From Gammaproteobacteria bacterium (GTDB taxonomy: Bacteria > Pseudomonadota > Gammaproteobacteria > VBWC01): a DNA stretch of 64,000 nt. Positions 565-29,230 of the stretch are shown here, piece by piece (position 1 is the stretch's first letter; each line of letters opens with the position of its first letter). Both the position numbers and the translations under genes were made by a program. Under the pieces are notes generated by a model. It was not told where the DNA came from. It worked only from the letters and a program-made list of their open reading frames with translations, and searched no databases. Location of the stretch: assembly GCA_023266115.1 (NCBI GenBank), contig JAHFRU010000012.1:1-64000 (forward strand), read 5' to 3'.

Positions 565-948
565 TTAATCGTTGACCATGCCTTTCAGTGCTTTCAATGC
601 CTGTACCTTCGCGACGTTGCGGGCGGGTTTGGCCTTGAACATTGTTTCTTCGCCGGTGAAAGGGTTGATACCCTTGCGCGCCTTGGTGGCGGGTTTGCGA
701 ACCACCTTGATCTTCAACAGGCCGGGAAGGGTAAAGACTCCTGCGCCACGTTTTCTGACGTGACCATGAATCAGCGATTCGAGAGTTCCAAATACTGCAG
801 CGACATCTTTCTTTGCGAGTCCGGTATCGTCCGCGATGTTTCCAAGGATCTGGCTTTTGGTAAAGGCCGTTGCAATCGGTCCGGAAGCTTTTTTCTTCGC
901 GGCCGGTTTCGCAGTCTTCTTTTTTGCGGTTTTCTTTCTTGCAGCCAT
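565..948 (-). CDS. HU/IHF-family DNA-binding protein with lysine-rich N-terminal tail
   Basis: A 127-residue nucleoid protein that should bind and bend DNA as a dimer. Residues 1-25 are a Lys/Ala-rich tail (MAARKKTAKKKTAKPAAKKK) absent from classical 90-residue HU. The HU fold follows from about residue 28, with a DNA-binding arm whose GINPFTGEETMFKAKPARN segment corresponds to the GRNPxTGE-type arm of HU/IHF. A strong GGAGG lies 7 bases before the start, and a perfect terminator follows the stop. It is monocistronic. The basic tail recalls eukaryote-like H1 extensions seen on some bacterial HU proteins, and I infer it adds non-specific DNA affinity. Whether this is the only HU in the genome cannot be told from here. 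Confidence 0.93.
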   Translation of the reverse strand: MAARKKTAKKKTAKPAAKKKASGPIATAFTKSQILGNIADDTGLAKKDVAAVFGTLESLIHGHVRKRGAGVFTLPGLLKIKVVRKPATKARKGINPFTGEETMFKAKPARNVAKVQALKALKGMVND

Positions 949-23938: not shown

Positions 23939-24907
23939 CGTCTCTAGATCCCGTCTGAGTGTCAGTGGAAAAAGTATAGGGGCTGACGAGCGGGCGCGTA
24001 AACTTAATTCTCGCAAACACCGGCGTCCTTCGTATCGGCGTAGAAATTTCTATTCCGAGCTTGTGCGGTTCGATGGATGTACCGCATCGCCCGCGTTCAA
24101 TCAAGCAATAAAAACGGGCCTGCGTATCGACGACGGCAGTCCGTCACCGGAACAACGATGACGGGCTGACTGAATCCGCATCGCTGTCACTGGTTTTATC
24201 GTCGACGATCACGACGACGCATGCGCTATCGTTCGCCAGGCCGAACGACATGTCCTCAACCACTAAACTGTTGTTACCTGCACTGACCAGGGCCCACACT
24301 GAAAATGTCGGCCTGAAAGACGGTGGTCCGGTTAACAGCCCCGATCAGTGCGCCAACGACCGAATTTCCGTGAATGACGACTTGATTATCACCAGCCTGG
24401 GGTCGGGTATCGCGCCGCGCCCCGGTGTCTCTGAATCAATCAGCAAACGCAGGGGATGGAAAAAATAATAACGACGCTCGGAGCGCCACGGCCTTGAGTT
24501 TCTTTACTGTGATGGTATCCGTACTAAATCTAAGATTGTTATCCACGCTTTATAGCGTTGATTTCGCTGTTAACAGGAGAGTCCTTGCGCGGGGCCGGAA
24601 TCAGGCGCACGGGGAAATTTCGCACAGCGAATCTTACGAAGAAGAACAAAAATTCCGATTAGATTTCATGGGGTCGGGACGATATTCGATGACGTTTCGG
24701 TGGCGCCGAGACTGGAGTAATTAACTATAATCATTACCAAATAGTTGCAGTTACCGGCCACTTTCGGCGGAATCGTGAATTTCCGCATAATTGTGTATAC
24801 TTCTGCCGACGGTTTTCGTCGTTCGAGCGTTTGGACAGGGTTGATCTTACAATTAGGACCTTCCGCTCTCGATAAGCCGATAGCCAGCCAGAAAAGAGGA
24901 GACAATA
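23939..24907. other. Long intergenic region before the histone-fold gene
   Basis: Almost a kilobase without a gene I can support. Open frames are short, lack ribosome sites and have no clear family motif. The region should contain the promoter of the GDH gene (left, minus strand) and of the histone-fold gene (right). The right-hand half is AT-richer than the surrounding sequence. Confidence 0.5.
24773..24801 (+). promoter_or_regulatory. Candidate promoter of the histone-fold gene
   Basis: A good -10 box TATACT (24796-24801, 5 of 6) is preceded at 17 bases by a poor -35 (TCGTGA). The untranslated leader would be about 100 bases. Weak -35 with good -10 may mean an activated or alternative-sigma promoter. 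Confidence 0.4.
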
Positions 24908-25093
24908 ATGGCGGAAGATACTCTCGTCGTCGCATCCAAACTCAAGAAATACATCAAGGACAAGGCAGACATGAATACGTCTGCTGGCGCCCTTGAGGTC
25001 CTCTCGGACCGGATACGGGCCATGTGTGATCAGGCGATCGAAAACGCCCGGTCGGATGGCCGCAAGACGGTCAAGGACCGCGACTTCTCCTAG
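24908..25093 (+). CDS. Bacterial histone-fold protein (Bdellovibrio Bd0055/HBb-like)
   Basis: A 61-residue protein with a minimal histone fold. Residues 6-19 (LVVASKLKKYIKDK) form helix 1, 24-50 (TSAGALEVLSDRIRAMCDQA...) the long central helix, and 51-61 the loop and short helix 3. The loop GRKTVKDRDF (residues 51-60) matches the archaeal histone HMfB loop GRKTIKAED, with the Arg-Thr...Asp clamp (Arg52, Thr54, Asp59). The length equals that of the Bdellovibrio histone, and there is no C-terminal extension. AGGAG stands 8 bases before the ATG; a terminator follows the stop. The gene is monocistronic. It probably binds DNA as a dimer; whether it bends DNA or coats it as filaments is not predictable. 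Confidence 0.88.
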   Translation: MAEDTLVVASKLKKYIKDKADMNTSAGALEVLSDRIRAMCDQAIENARSDGRKTVKDRDFS

Positions 25094-25188
25094 CGCCGCA
25101 GGTTTGCGGTGACCGAGGGGGGAAGTAGTCAATCTGATCGGATTGAATTGCTTACGAGCCTTTACAATAGACAGTGGTTCATTTGCCG

Positions 25189-25216
25189 AGCCCGCCATTT
25201 TGGCGGGCTTTTTTTG
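25189..25216 (+). terminator. Intrinsic terminator after the histone-fold gene
   Basis: Stem AGCCCGCC (25189-25196) with GGCGGGCT (25202-25209), loop ATTTT, then a run of T. It follows the stop codon by about 95 bases. Confidence 0.93.
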
Positions 25217-25640
25217 TGATTAGTATACCCCGCCAAGCCGTTGTCCCCGCTCAATAGGAACCGGAGCTGAGCGATTCGGTTGACGACGGTCATGCCGCAG
25301 GACGCGGCGATTAATCCCCCGTCGGGGTGAAGTTCGGACGACGTAAAGTCCCGGGAAAACCCCGGCGATCTCAGCGCTCTAGGGACTGCAGTGCCAACCG
25401 TAACGCCATCAAGAAGTCAGAAAAAGCAAATATCTTGTGCTTGATTTCCATAATTGCTTCATGTAGCTATAAGCGCCGGGAAAATCTGATTTTCTTGGGT
25501 ATTTTGACCTTTTGGCTGTCCGTGCATGTGGTTTTTGTGTGCTGGTATGTAGAAGTTGCTTTCTCCAATACTTCACTTGATAACCTTTCATAATCCGCAT
25601 GCCTGGACGCTACAGACATTTCGATTATGGGGGGATAGTT
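25217..25640. other. Intergenic region and leader of the cold-shock gene
   Basis: No gene is supported. The cold-shock promoter and a long untranslated leader should lie here, as is usual for csp genes. A compact potential structure at 25347-25387 combines AGTC/GACT with an inner CCGGG-AAAA(C)-CCCGG hairpin. I could not assign it to a known riboswitch or cold-box class. Confidence 0.4.
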
Positions 25641-25844
25641 ATGGCGAACGGTACGGTAAAATGGTTTAATGAGTCGAAGGGCTTCGGGTTTATTGCGCCG
25701 GAGGATGGATCGGAAGATGTTTTTGTCCATTACTCGTCGATAGAGGGCGCGGGTTTCAAGACGTTGACGGAAGGGCAAAGCGTTACGTTTGAAAGCCAGC
25801 GTGGTCCGAAAGGATTAACGGCAGTTAACGTCAATCCAGTATAA
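25641..25844 (+). CDS. Cold-shock domain protein (CspA family)
   Basis: A 67-residue single-stranded nucleic-acid-binding protein. The start at 25641 gives the family N-terminus ANGTVKWFN and is preceded by a GGGGGG ribosome site. RNP1 KGFGFI and RNP2 VFVHY are intact, as is the usual ending PKGLTAVNV. It acts as an RNA chaperone, in either cold or growth-phase roles. Its own terminator follows, and typA comes directly after, so the two genes are separate transcription units. Confidence 0.96.
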
Positions 25845-25871
25845 CCCCCTGATACTTGTCATTCTCGCAAC

Positions 25872-25901
25872 AGGCCCTGCCAGTCGGCGGGGCCTTTTTT
25901 T
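25872..25901 (+). terminator. Intrinsic terminator after the cold-shock gene
   Basis: Stem AGGCCCTGCC (25872-25881) with GGCGGGGCCT (25886-25895), loop AGTC, one wobble pair, followed by seven T. It ends about 12 bases before the typA start. Confidence 0.92.
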
Positions 25902-25912
25902 ATTTGGATATT

Positions 25913-27721
25913 ATGATAGACAACATTCGAAATATTGCGATTATCGCGCATGTGGATCACGGCAAGACCACGCTTGTTGACAAACTTCTGCAACAGTCCG
26001 GTACGTTGGATGTTCGTGGTCCTGTGCTCGAGCGGGTCATGGATAGTAACGATCTGGAAAAAGAACGTGGCATCACGATTCTAGCGAAGAACACGTCTCT
26101 GACCTGGCAGGGTTGTCATATCAATATCGTAGACACGCCCGGCCATGCCGATTTTGGTGGCGAGGTTGAGCGCATTCTGTCTATGGTGGATTCGGTGCTG
26201 TTGCTGGTGGATGCGGTCGATGGCCCGATGCCTCAAACGCGTTTTGTCACGCAGAAGGCTCTGGCGCGTGGTCTCTGCCCGATAGTTGTTATCAACAAAA
26301 TCGACCGGCCCGGCGCGCGACCACATTGGGTGCTAGACCAGACCTTTGAGTTGTTCGATCGGCTTGGCGCCAGTGAAAAACAACTCGATTTTCCGATCGT
26401 ATATGCGTCGGCTTTGCTCGGGTACGCTGTTTTGCAGGCAGAGGATCGTGGCACGGACATGACGCCGCTGTTCCAGACCATCGTCGATCGCGTGCCGCCG
26501 CCCGTGGTAGATCCATCCGGGCCGTTCCAGCTGCAAGTGAGCTCGCTGGCCTATGACAACTATGTGGGTGTTATAGGCATAGGCCGGATCAGCCGCGGCC
26601 AGGTCCGGACCAATACCGCGGTGACGGTGATTGATCGCGATGGCAATACCCGCCGTGGCCGCGTATTGCAGGTATTCGGGTTTCACGGGCTGAAGCGCGT
26701 CGAGATTCCGGAGGCGGGCGCCGGTGATATCATTGCGTTTACCGGTCTCGAGACACTGGATATCTCGGATACGTTATGTGATCCGCTGACGGTTGAGGCA
26801 TTGCCGGCGCTATCCGTCGATGAGCCGACCGTATCGATGACTTTTCAGGTGAACAAGTCGCCGTTCGCCGGCCGCGAAGGAAAGTATCTGACCTCACGGC
26901 AGATTCGTGAGCGGTTGTGGCGGGAACTTAAACACAACGTCGCGTTGCGTGTCCAGGAGACGCCTGATCCAGACAAATTCGTGGTGTCCGGACGCGGCGA
27001 GCTTCATCTGTCTATTCTGATTGAGAATATGCGGCGCGAGGGATACGAGCTTGCGGTATCGCGGCCGGAAGTTATCACCAAGATCGTCGACGGGGTTGAA
27101 CATGAACCGTTCGAACAGCTGACGGTGGATGTGGAAGACGTTCATCAGGGTGCCGTAATGGAGCGCATAGGTGCGCGCGGCGGAGATCTGCAAAGCATGA
27201 TGCCGGATGGCAAGGGGCGGGTTCGTCTGGATTTCGTCATACCGGCGCGCGCGCTGATTGGATTTCGGACAGAATTTCTGACCGCCACGTCCGGGACGGG
27301 TCTTATGTATCACGTGTTCGAACGTTACGCGCCGGCAAAGAAAGGCGGGATCGGTCAGCGCGTCAACGGGGTGCTGATTTCCAACGGGACCGGAAAGGTT
27401 CTGGCTTTCGCGTTGTTCAATCTCCAGGAGCGCGGCCGTCTGTTCGTGGGGCCGGGTGACGAGGCATACGAAGGGATGATCGTCGGATTGCATTCTCGCG
27501 ATAACGATCTCGTCGTCAATCCTTTGAAAGGGAAGCAGCTGAATAATATTCGCGCCGCGGGTTCCGACGAAAACATCATACTTGTCCCGCCGGTGCGGCA
27601 CAGCCTGGAGCAGGCGCTCGAATTCATCGATGACGATGAATTGGTCGAAGTGACGCCCAAATCCATCCGTATACGCAAGAAGAAGCTCAAAGAGCACGAG
27701 CGTAAACGCGACAGCCGTTAG
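25913..27721 (+). CDS. typA: GTP-binding protein TypA/BipA
   Basis: A 602-residue ribosome-associated translational GTPase. The G1 motif AHVDHGKTT is at residues 12-20; G2 is in the RGITI loop, G3 [13 protein letters not shown]4 NKID; the C-terminal TypA-specific domain contains [15 protein letters not shown]. Length is normal. The start at 25913 (MIDNIRN) is the conserved one; an upstream in-frame TTG would lie inside the cold-shock terminator and is rejected. The protein supports 50S assembly and stress adaptation, including growth in the cold, which fits the adjacent cold-shock gene. Confidence 0.97.
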
Positions 27722-27730
27722 CCGGGTAGC

Positions 27731-27751
27731 CCGGGCGCATCAGGCGCCCGG
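27731..27751 (+). terminator. Strong GC hairpin after typA
   Basis: CCGGGCGC (27731-27738) pairs perfectly with GCGCCCGG (27744-27751) around ATCAG, 10 bases past the typA stop. There is no U run; it may act as a 3'-end stabiliser or a Rho-assisted terminator. Confidence 0.5.
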
Positions 27752-27940
27752 CCTCGTTCCTAGTTTTCGATATCGCTAGCTTGTGGATAAGCCATCCGTC
27801 GGCGCGATCGTCGCGGGCGCGGTACCCGGATGGAGTTTCTATTCCGCCTAAAGACGCGTTGAGGCAACACCCACACGCGATAGCGGTTGATTTTAATTTC
27901 CGTTTTTCTAAACTACTCGAAAACCTTGCGGAGCATTCCA

Positions 27941-29230
27941 GTGTTGCTGGCCAGTTCGAGTCGTGTCCCTTTGGAACCCGCGCAGTTCGGTGAACCGGAA
28001 ACGCTGAGAGCGCGATACGAGGGAATCCGGCGACTGACCGAGTATCTTTGCGAACCGCTGGTCGTAGAGGATTACGTGATACAGGGCATGCCGGATGTCA
28101 GCCCGCCCAAATGGCATCTTGCGCACGCGACGTGGTTTTTTGAAACGTTCGTGCTGGCATTAACCGGCGGTTACCGCGCGTTCGACCCGCTGTTTTCCAG
28201 TTTGTTTAATTCATATTATGAGGGGGCGGGCGCCGTTTATCCGCGTGCGCGGCGTGGCTTGCTGGCCCGACCGACGGTAGACGAGGTTTTTCGCTATCGG
28301 GCCTACGTCGATCATTACGTTAACGAGCTTCTCGACAATCTGATCGAACGGGATAACCGCGACAGCATCGCATTTCTTCTTGTGCTTGGACTCAATCACG
28401 AACAACAGCATCAGGAGCTGTTGCTGACGGATATCAAATACAATTTCTCGATTAATCCGTTGGCCCCGGTGTATCGGGATATTGGGGTGATCGATGGATC
28501 GCTTTCCCCGCCGCTGGAGTTTATCGAGTACGGTGGCGGCCTTTACCAGATCGGGCATGCTGGCGACGGCTTCGCCTATGATAACGAAGGTCCACGGCAT
28601 CGGGTATGTGTCGAGCCCTATCGCCTTGCAAATCGACCGGTGACAAATGCCGAGTTCGTCCGGTTTATCGAGTCCGGGGGCTATCACGAATCGAGGTACT
28701 GGCTGTCGGACGGTTGGCAACTGGTGAAGGAGTTGGGCTGGGAGCATCCCCTCTACTGGCGCCGCATCGATACCGGATGGGAAGTCTCGACGTTGGGCGG
28801 GGTGCGTCCGTTAGATCTTCACGAGCCCGTCTGCCATGTCAGTTTCTTTGAGGCTGACGCCTTTGCCCGCTGGGCCGAAAAGCGTCTGCCTACCGAGGCC
28901 GAGTGGGAACTGGCGGCTTGCCGCGAGTCGAAAGGCGGAAATTTTCTGGGTTCCGGACATTTTCATCCGGTTGGCGGCGAACTGTCGGCGATGTTTTTCG
29001 GTAATATCTGGCAATGGACGCAAAGCCCGTATACCGCGTATCCAGGTTTTCGCGCGCTGAACGGCACGCTGGGCGAATATAACGGAAAATTCATGAGCAA
29101 CCAGATGGTGCTGCGGGGTGGGTCGTGCGTCACACCGGCGGATCACGTCCGGGCAAGTTATCGTAACTTCTTTTATCCCGGTCAACGCTGGCAGTTCAGC
29201 GGTTTCCGCTTGGCAGAAGCCGTCATATGA
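27941..29230 (+). CDS. egtB: Ergothioneine biosynthesis sulfoxide synthase EgtB
   Basis: A 429-residue non-haem iron enzyme that joins trimethylhistidine (hercynine) to a thiol substrate using O2. The DinB-like N-terminal domain holds the iron ligands: His62 in KWHLAHATWFF, and His153 and His157 in LGLNHEQQHQELLLT. The C-terminal half is an FGE-sulfatase fold (PRHRVCVEPYRLANRPVTNAEF, RLPTEAEWELAA, GSCVTP, YRNFFYP, GFRLAE). The GTG start at 27941 is chosen because GGAG lies 7 bases upstream; a TTG at 27887 is possible. No egtA or egtC homologue is nearby, so it may use cysteine rather than gamma-glutamylcysteine, but the residues do not prove it. Overlaps egtD by 4 bases. Confidence 0.92.
   Translation: MLLASSSRVPLEPAQFGEPETLRARYEGIRRLTEYLCEPLVVEDYVIQGMPDVSPPKWHLAHATWFFETFVLALTGGYRAFDPLFSSLFNSYYEGAGAVYPRARRGLLARPTVDEVFRYRAYVDHYVNELLDNLIERDNRDSIAFLLVLGLNHEQQHQELLLTDIKYNFSINPLAPVYRDIGVIDGSLSPPLEFIEYGGGLYQIGHAGDGFAYDNEGPRHRVCVEPYRLANRPVTNAEFVRFIESGGYHESRYWLSDGWQLVKELGWEHPLYWRRIDTGWEVSTLGGVRPLDLHEPVCHVSFFEADAFARWAEKRLPTEAEWELAACRESKGGNFLGSGHFHPVGGELSAMFFGNIWQWTQSPYTAYPGFRALNGTLGEYNGKFMSNQMVLRGGSCVTPADHVRASYRNFFYPGQRWQFSGFRLAEAVI

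Follow-up and report, generated by a model that had tools for sequence, protein, structure and literature searches.

The question raised by this locus is whether a gammaproteobacterium carries a histone of the type known as HBb in Bdellovibrio, as an earlier note on this DNA had proposed, and, if so, what such a protein would do in its host. The locus lies in a stretch of 64,000 nucleotides that was analysed as a whole (hereafter, the window). Our results provide good support for the assignment of the 61-residue protein to the HBb class, the 'bacterial dimer' histones, and we consider it likely that the protein functions as a homodimeric, sequence-nonspecific, DNA-bending chromatin protein beside HU, IHF and Fis. 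The protein type is already known; its steady presence in a gammaproteobacterial lineage is the new part.

The histone gene, its signals and its company

A congener of the window species (genome G001, record VBWC01000003.1, 'Gammaproteobacteria bacterium') contains the same locus, L005, which served for comparison. The relevant features of the window are the following:

565-948, minus strand: HU-family protein with a Lys/Ala/Pro-rich N-terminal arm (MAARKKTAKKKTAKPAAKKKASG...), identified by Pfam PF00216 (E 8e-15) and its translation
24796-24801, plus strand: TATACT, a putative -10 box near the upstream end of a block (24789-24907) that is conserved in L005
24896-24901, plus strand: Shine-Dalgarno sequence GAGGAG, 6 nt before the histone ATG, read from the sequence and conserved in L005
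24908-25093, plus strand: HBb-type 'bacterial dimer' histone gene, 61 aa (phmmer, AlphaFold helices, congener orthologue)
25188-25215, plus strand: intrinsic terminator, a 10-pair stem with a T run; the stem is identical in L005
25641-25844, plus strand: cold-shock protein gene, cspA (Pfam CSD, E 8e-30), with the terminator between it and the histone gene
25913-27721, plus strand: typA/bipA (Pfam BipA_C, E 2e-46)

The open reading frame at 24908-25093 translates into MAEDTLVVASKLKKYIKDKADMNTSAGALEVLSDRIRAMCDQAIENARSDGRKTVKDRDFS (61 residues). Several lines of evidence show that it is not a chance frame. Firstly, phmmer matches its product to HBb with an E-value of 3.4e-14. Secondly, the congener has an orthologue that is 95% identical and located at the same locus, within a region (24789-29083 of the window) that aligns at 93.7%. 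Thirdly, 11 of the 12 nucleotide differences between the two genes fall at third codon positions, and the dN/dS of about 0.085 indicates purifying selection. The open frame extends by only 8 codons 5' of the histone ATG. The gene is present in single copy in the genome, the only other match being a weak one over 33 residues inside a 699-aa frame. The minus strand of the histone stretch is also open, for 62 codons, and gives a PP_kinase_C match (E 0.04) that stays below the cut-off; we set this reading aside as a shadow of the coding frame.

The earlier note had described the gene as standing alone with its own promoter, ribosome site and terminator. The last two hold, both being conserved in L005, whereas the promoter is only plausible: a promoter scan gave no excess over chance or shuffles (2 found versus 2.1 expected), and it is the conservation of the upstream block in L005, not the scan, that suggests one. 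The putative leader, from the TATACT box to the ATG, would be about 100 nt long; its RNA folds no better than shuffled sequences (z +1.17), and an Rfam search of the window matched no family. The histone gene is probably a transcription unit of its own. It is followed by cspA, the nearby cold-shock gene that had been pointed out before, and then by typA, and a Glu/Leu/Phe/Val-type dehydrogenase gene lies upstream on the opposite strand. The congener has an intact gene for an exported-looking repeat protein (L005 2042-3610, minus strand); the window keeps a remnant of it at 24144-24425 (65.6% nucleotide identity), and the window species seems to have lost the gene.

As noted previously, the genome encodes both a histone and an HU protein. 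However, the lysine-rich extension of that HU, the protein at 565-948, is N-terminal rather than a tail, and setting the histone against this one HU is too narrow a contrast, since the genome also encodes an HU (C17), an IHF-alpha-like (C39) and an IHF-beta-like (C16) protein, as well as a 102-residue frame with a Fis-like HTH at its end. The IHF-alpha, IHF-beta and Fis identities are our reading of the sequences. A search of the genome for H-NS gave no match. Because HU, IHF and Fis are co-resident, the histone is an addition to the usual set and not a replacement for it. Bdellovibrio likewise carries HU/IHF alongside HBb (PMC11317129).

Class assignment and predicted DNA contacts

A phmmer search against solved structures gave HBb/Bd0055 of Bdellovibrio (8fvx, 8cmp) as the best match (E 3e-14, residues 4-60), with 30 of 57 residues identical, followed by HLp of Leptospira (9qt0; E 4.5e-9, 25 of 57 residues identical) and then by archaeal histones; the match to HMfB/nucleosomal histones was weak (E 0.38). 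The profile search that the earlier note had put forward as a check turned out differently: no DUF1931-type profile matched the protein, and its scores remained below the curated cut-offs for both Pfam PF00808 (CBFD_NFYB_HMF; 15.6 bits versus 21.4) and the archaeal histone model NCBIfam NF043032 (27.5 versus 50). These two scores, being below cut-off, are not taken as proof, and the profile search alone is not decisive. They also imply that such genes have probably been left as hypothetical proteins.

The structure prediction favoured the same class. AlphaFold, supplied with an alignment of 31 homologues, predicted a histone fold with three helices (residues 7-20, 28-49 and 55-59) at a mean pLDDT of 82, in which the short helix 3 is of low confidence (block means of 65 and 54, starting at residue 51). 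Thus, the likeness to Bd0055 in length and helix layout, proposed before, was borne out. The top five Foldseek matches were five HBb chains (probability 1.00, E 5e-3 to 3e-2), the modest E-values being due to the shortness of the chain. Foldseek gave a whole-chain rmsd of about 6.3 Å to HBb, which we attribute to a different placement of helix 3 in the lone chain. VIA-align superposed the model on HBb at 2.0 Å over 51 residues, with a Z in the range of other histone folds; the matches of the model to other histone folds speak for the fold and not for the subfamily.

The subfamily is indicated by individual residues. The 'bacterial dimer' class, which was defined by sequence clustering, is marked by K11, K13 and K17 together with the motif RKTxxxD (PMC11390915); the 61-aa protein has the three helix-1 lysines, and R52-K53-T54 followed by D57/D59. 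It has been reported that HBb contacts DNA through T8, S9, K10, K12, T23, S24, A25, K52, T53 and R57 (PMC11317129). These positions map onto A9, S10, K11, K13, T24, S25, A26, K53, T54 and R58, of which nine out of ten are identical, the sole change being T8 to A9. The HBb clamp R51-D58 and the additional D49 are retained as R52, D59 and D50, and the dimer-core residues V11, L31, I35, L38 and I59 correspond to L12, L32, I36, M39 and F60, all hydrophobic. Nine residues are invariant across the 31 aligned homologues (L6, S10, K13, A43, A47, R52, T54, R58 and D59), among them R52, T54 and D59, which had been singled out beforehand as those whose conservation would be telling. Full-length homology to HBb, the retained DNA-contact residues, the predicted three-helix layout and the class-marking residues together make the proposal of an HBb-type bacterial histone well founded.

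Based on the homology and the predicted three-helix monomer, two histone chains would pair via their central helix. The resulting dimer is expected to grip DNA without sequence preference; taking the contacts from the HBb crystals and placing the residues by alignment, the candidate grip sites are the S10-K11 turn and K13 in helix 1, T24-S25-A26 in loop 1, and K53-T54 with R58 in loop 2/helix 3, while the R52-D59 clamp and D50 would fix loop 2. Isolated dimers would then bend DNA as HBb does, without wrapping it; bending rather than wrapping is predicted because the protein lacks the residues on which face-to-face tetramers depend. HBb-like bending in the cell of the window's host is thus an expectation that follows from HBb. 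Within the bacterial dimer class, no protein other than HBb is known to have been assayed for bending, and straight filaments have been proposed by another study (PMC10627809, as discussed in PMC11317129). In the host, the histone probably serves as an added general DNA bender, supplementing the bending by the co-resident HU and IHF.

It could be argued that the DNA-binding histone fold serves as a specialised or condition-bound regulator, or as a minor component, instead of a general chromatin protein. At pH 7 the whole protein has almost no net charge (+0.5), the HU/IHF/Fis set is already complete and the gene is single copy, all of which would fit such a role. We nevertheless regard it as unlikely, since the DNA-contact residues are strictly conserved, a search of the genome gave no second histone as a pairing partner, and HBb coexists with HU/IHF and yet is a major, essential chromatin component (PMC10627809, PMC11317129). 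The core charge is +2, close to the +3 of the HBb core.

Less likely again is a place among the face-to-face (FtF) histones, such as HLp of Leptospira, with tetramers wrapping about 60 bp of DNA. The HLp match is significant, and HLp and the 61-aa protein both have a truncated helix 3 and an RD clamp (PMC12701072). However, the HBb match is the better of the two in E-value and identity, the FtF tetramer markers R48 and N52 are replaced by N46 and D50, and K53 and R58, which are Thr in HLp, are kept. Our preferred reading remains that of an HBb-like bending dimer.

Distribution, descent and a fused doublet

Histone folds occur in about 1.9% of bacterial genomes (PMC10627809). The main bacterial dimer carriers are Bdellovibrionota, Elusimicrobiota, Spirochaetota, Planctomycetota, Myxococcota_A and Chlamydiota, and Proteobacteria are named as carriers of ZZ histones (PMC11390915); the clade of the window histone is absent from the published list of main bacterial dimer carriers. 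None of the papers searched joined bacterial histones and Gammaproteobacteria, although supplementary tables may already list such entries. A histone homologue was found in 10 of 369 genomes in a class-wide draw and, in a phylum-wide draw of 397 genomes, in the window's own genome only; the draws differ in how they sample, and in each the gene is patchy. A scan of genome contigs yielded 32 loci, with labels that include Gammaproteobacteria, 'Deltaproteobacteria', Myxococcota, Planctomycetota and Neomarinimicrobiota. One genome of the same class has a histone locus that matches a MAG labelled 'uncultured Chromatiaceae'. A search for 16S in the window's own assembly gave no hit. Outside the genus, the nearest relative (75%) lies in a MAG labelled Deltaproteobacteria (L006 4001-4183), which is either a mislabelled MAG or a case of gene transfer.

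In five other gammaproteobacterial loci (L008, L011, L013, L017 and L019), fabA and fabB, as named from their sequences, come after the histone gene and run the same way, and in L013, L017 and L019 the next gene is typA. The recurrence of these neighbours suggests that the histone genes share an ancestor within part of the class, an argument weaker than a tree. The gene tree, whose 65 columns are too few, scatters the gammaproteobacterial rows and lends a single clade no support without rejecting it (p-AU 0.089). The least probable alternative is that the gene is mobile, was acquired recently or is a contaminant from binning, and has no settled role in the lineage: the patchy occurrence and the Deltaproteobacteria-labelled relative would suit it, but two species of the genus share the locus under purifying selection, typA lies near the histone gene in several gammaproteobacterial lineages, and a mobile origin was set aside because searches of phages, plasmids and viral contigs found no histone relatives.

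The most unusual of the side observations, and a more novel one, concerns two genomes of one other genus of the same class (G070, L058 4830-5309; G194, L059 4573-4953; both minus strand), which encode a fused HBb-type doublet. Its protein of about 126 aa contains two HBb-type histone folds per chain, and the SK..K motif and RRKTVMDRD are present in each half. The gene adjoins a yajQ-like gene, with lgt-like and thyA-like genes nearby. Since DUF1931 doublets are said to be without DNA-binding residues (PMC13088155), and both halves keep residues that those lack, this doublet looks different in kind; if so, it would be a bacterial one-chain histone dimer with intact DNA contacts.

A broader reading would be that a gammaproteobacterial sub-lineage has kept, vertically and beside fabAB/typA, an HBb-type histone that works in its chromatin together with HU, IHF and Fis, and that one genus evolved a fused doublet with DNA-binding residues in both halves. 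We put this forward tentatively, as a combined claim that falls slightly short of even odds. To our knowledge, the experiments on bacterial histones come from Bdellovibrio and Leptospira. Finding a histone in the same class as E. coli, together with HU, IHF and Fis, poses a direct question: how does one chromosome accommodate both a true histone and the standard architectural proteins?

Comparison with known systems

The real comparative value of this histone lies in its host and its company. Its nearest counterpart is HBb/Bd0055 of Bdellovibrio bacteriovorus (8FVX, 8CMP, 9EZZ, 9F0E), which it resembles in length, three-helix layout and identity, in K11/K13/K17 and RKTxxxD, in the RD clamp with the extra Asp, and in the DNA-contact set. 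It differs from HBb in the Ala at the T8 position, in the lower net charge of the whole protein, and in its setting, since the host is a gammaproteobacterium that also has HU, IHF and Fis, and the neighbours of the gene are cspA and typA.

HLp of Leptospira perolatii (FtF, PDB 9QT0) shares the histone fold, the short helix 3, the SK motif and the RD clamp; the 61-aa protein differs in missing the FtF tetramer residues and in having K53/R58 where HLp has Thr. ZZ histones contain the same histone domain type, whereas the 61-aa protein, with its short ORF and a Shine-Dalgarno sequence just before the ATG, has no N-terminal ZZ zinc-finger domain. Two proteins in our scan, from a Myxococcota MAG (L028 3425-3925) and a Desulforapulum MAG (L029 3587-4153), combine a cysteine-rich N-terminal domain with an HBb-like histone domain and appear to be of the ZZ type. 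Archaeal HMfB/nucleosomal histones have the loop 2 RKT and the RD clamp in common with the 61-aa protein, whose helices 2 and 3 are shorter. Finally, the DUF1931 pseudodimers (Aquifex Aq_328, Thermus 1WWI) are likewise histone folds in bacteria, but they place two folds in each chain and lack DNA-binding residues (PMC12701072, PMC13088155), whereas the 61-aa protein has one fold and retains DNA-binding residues.
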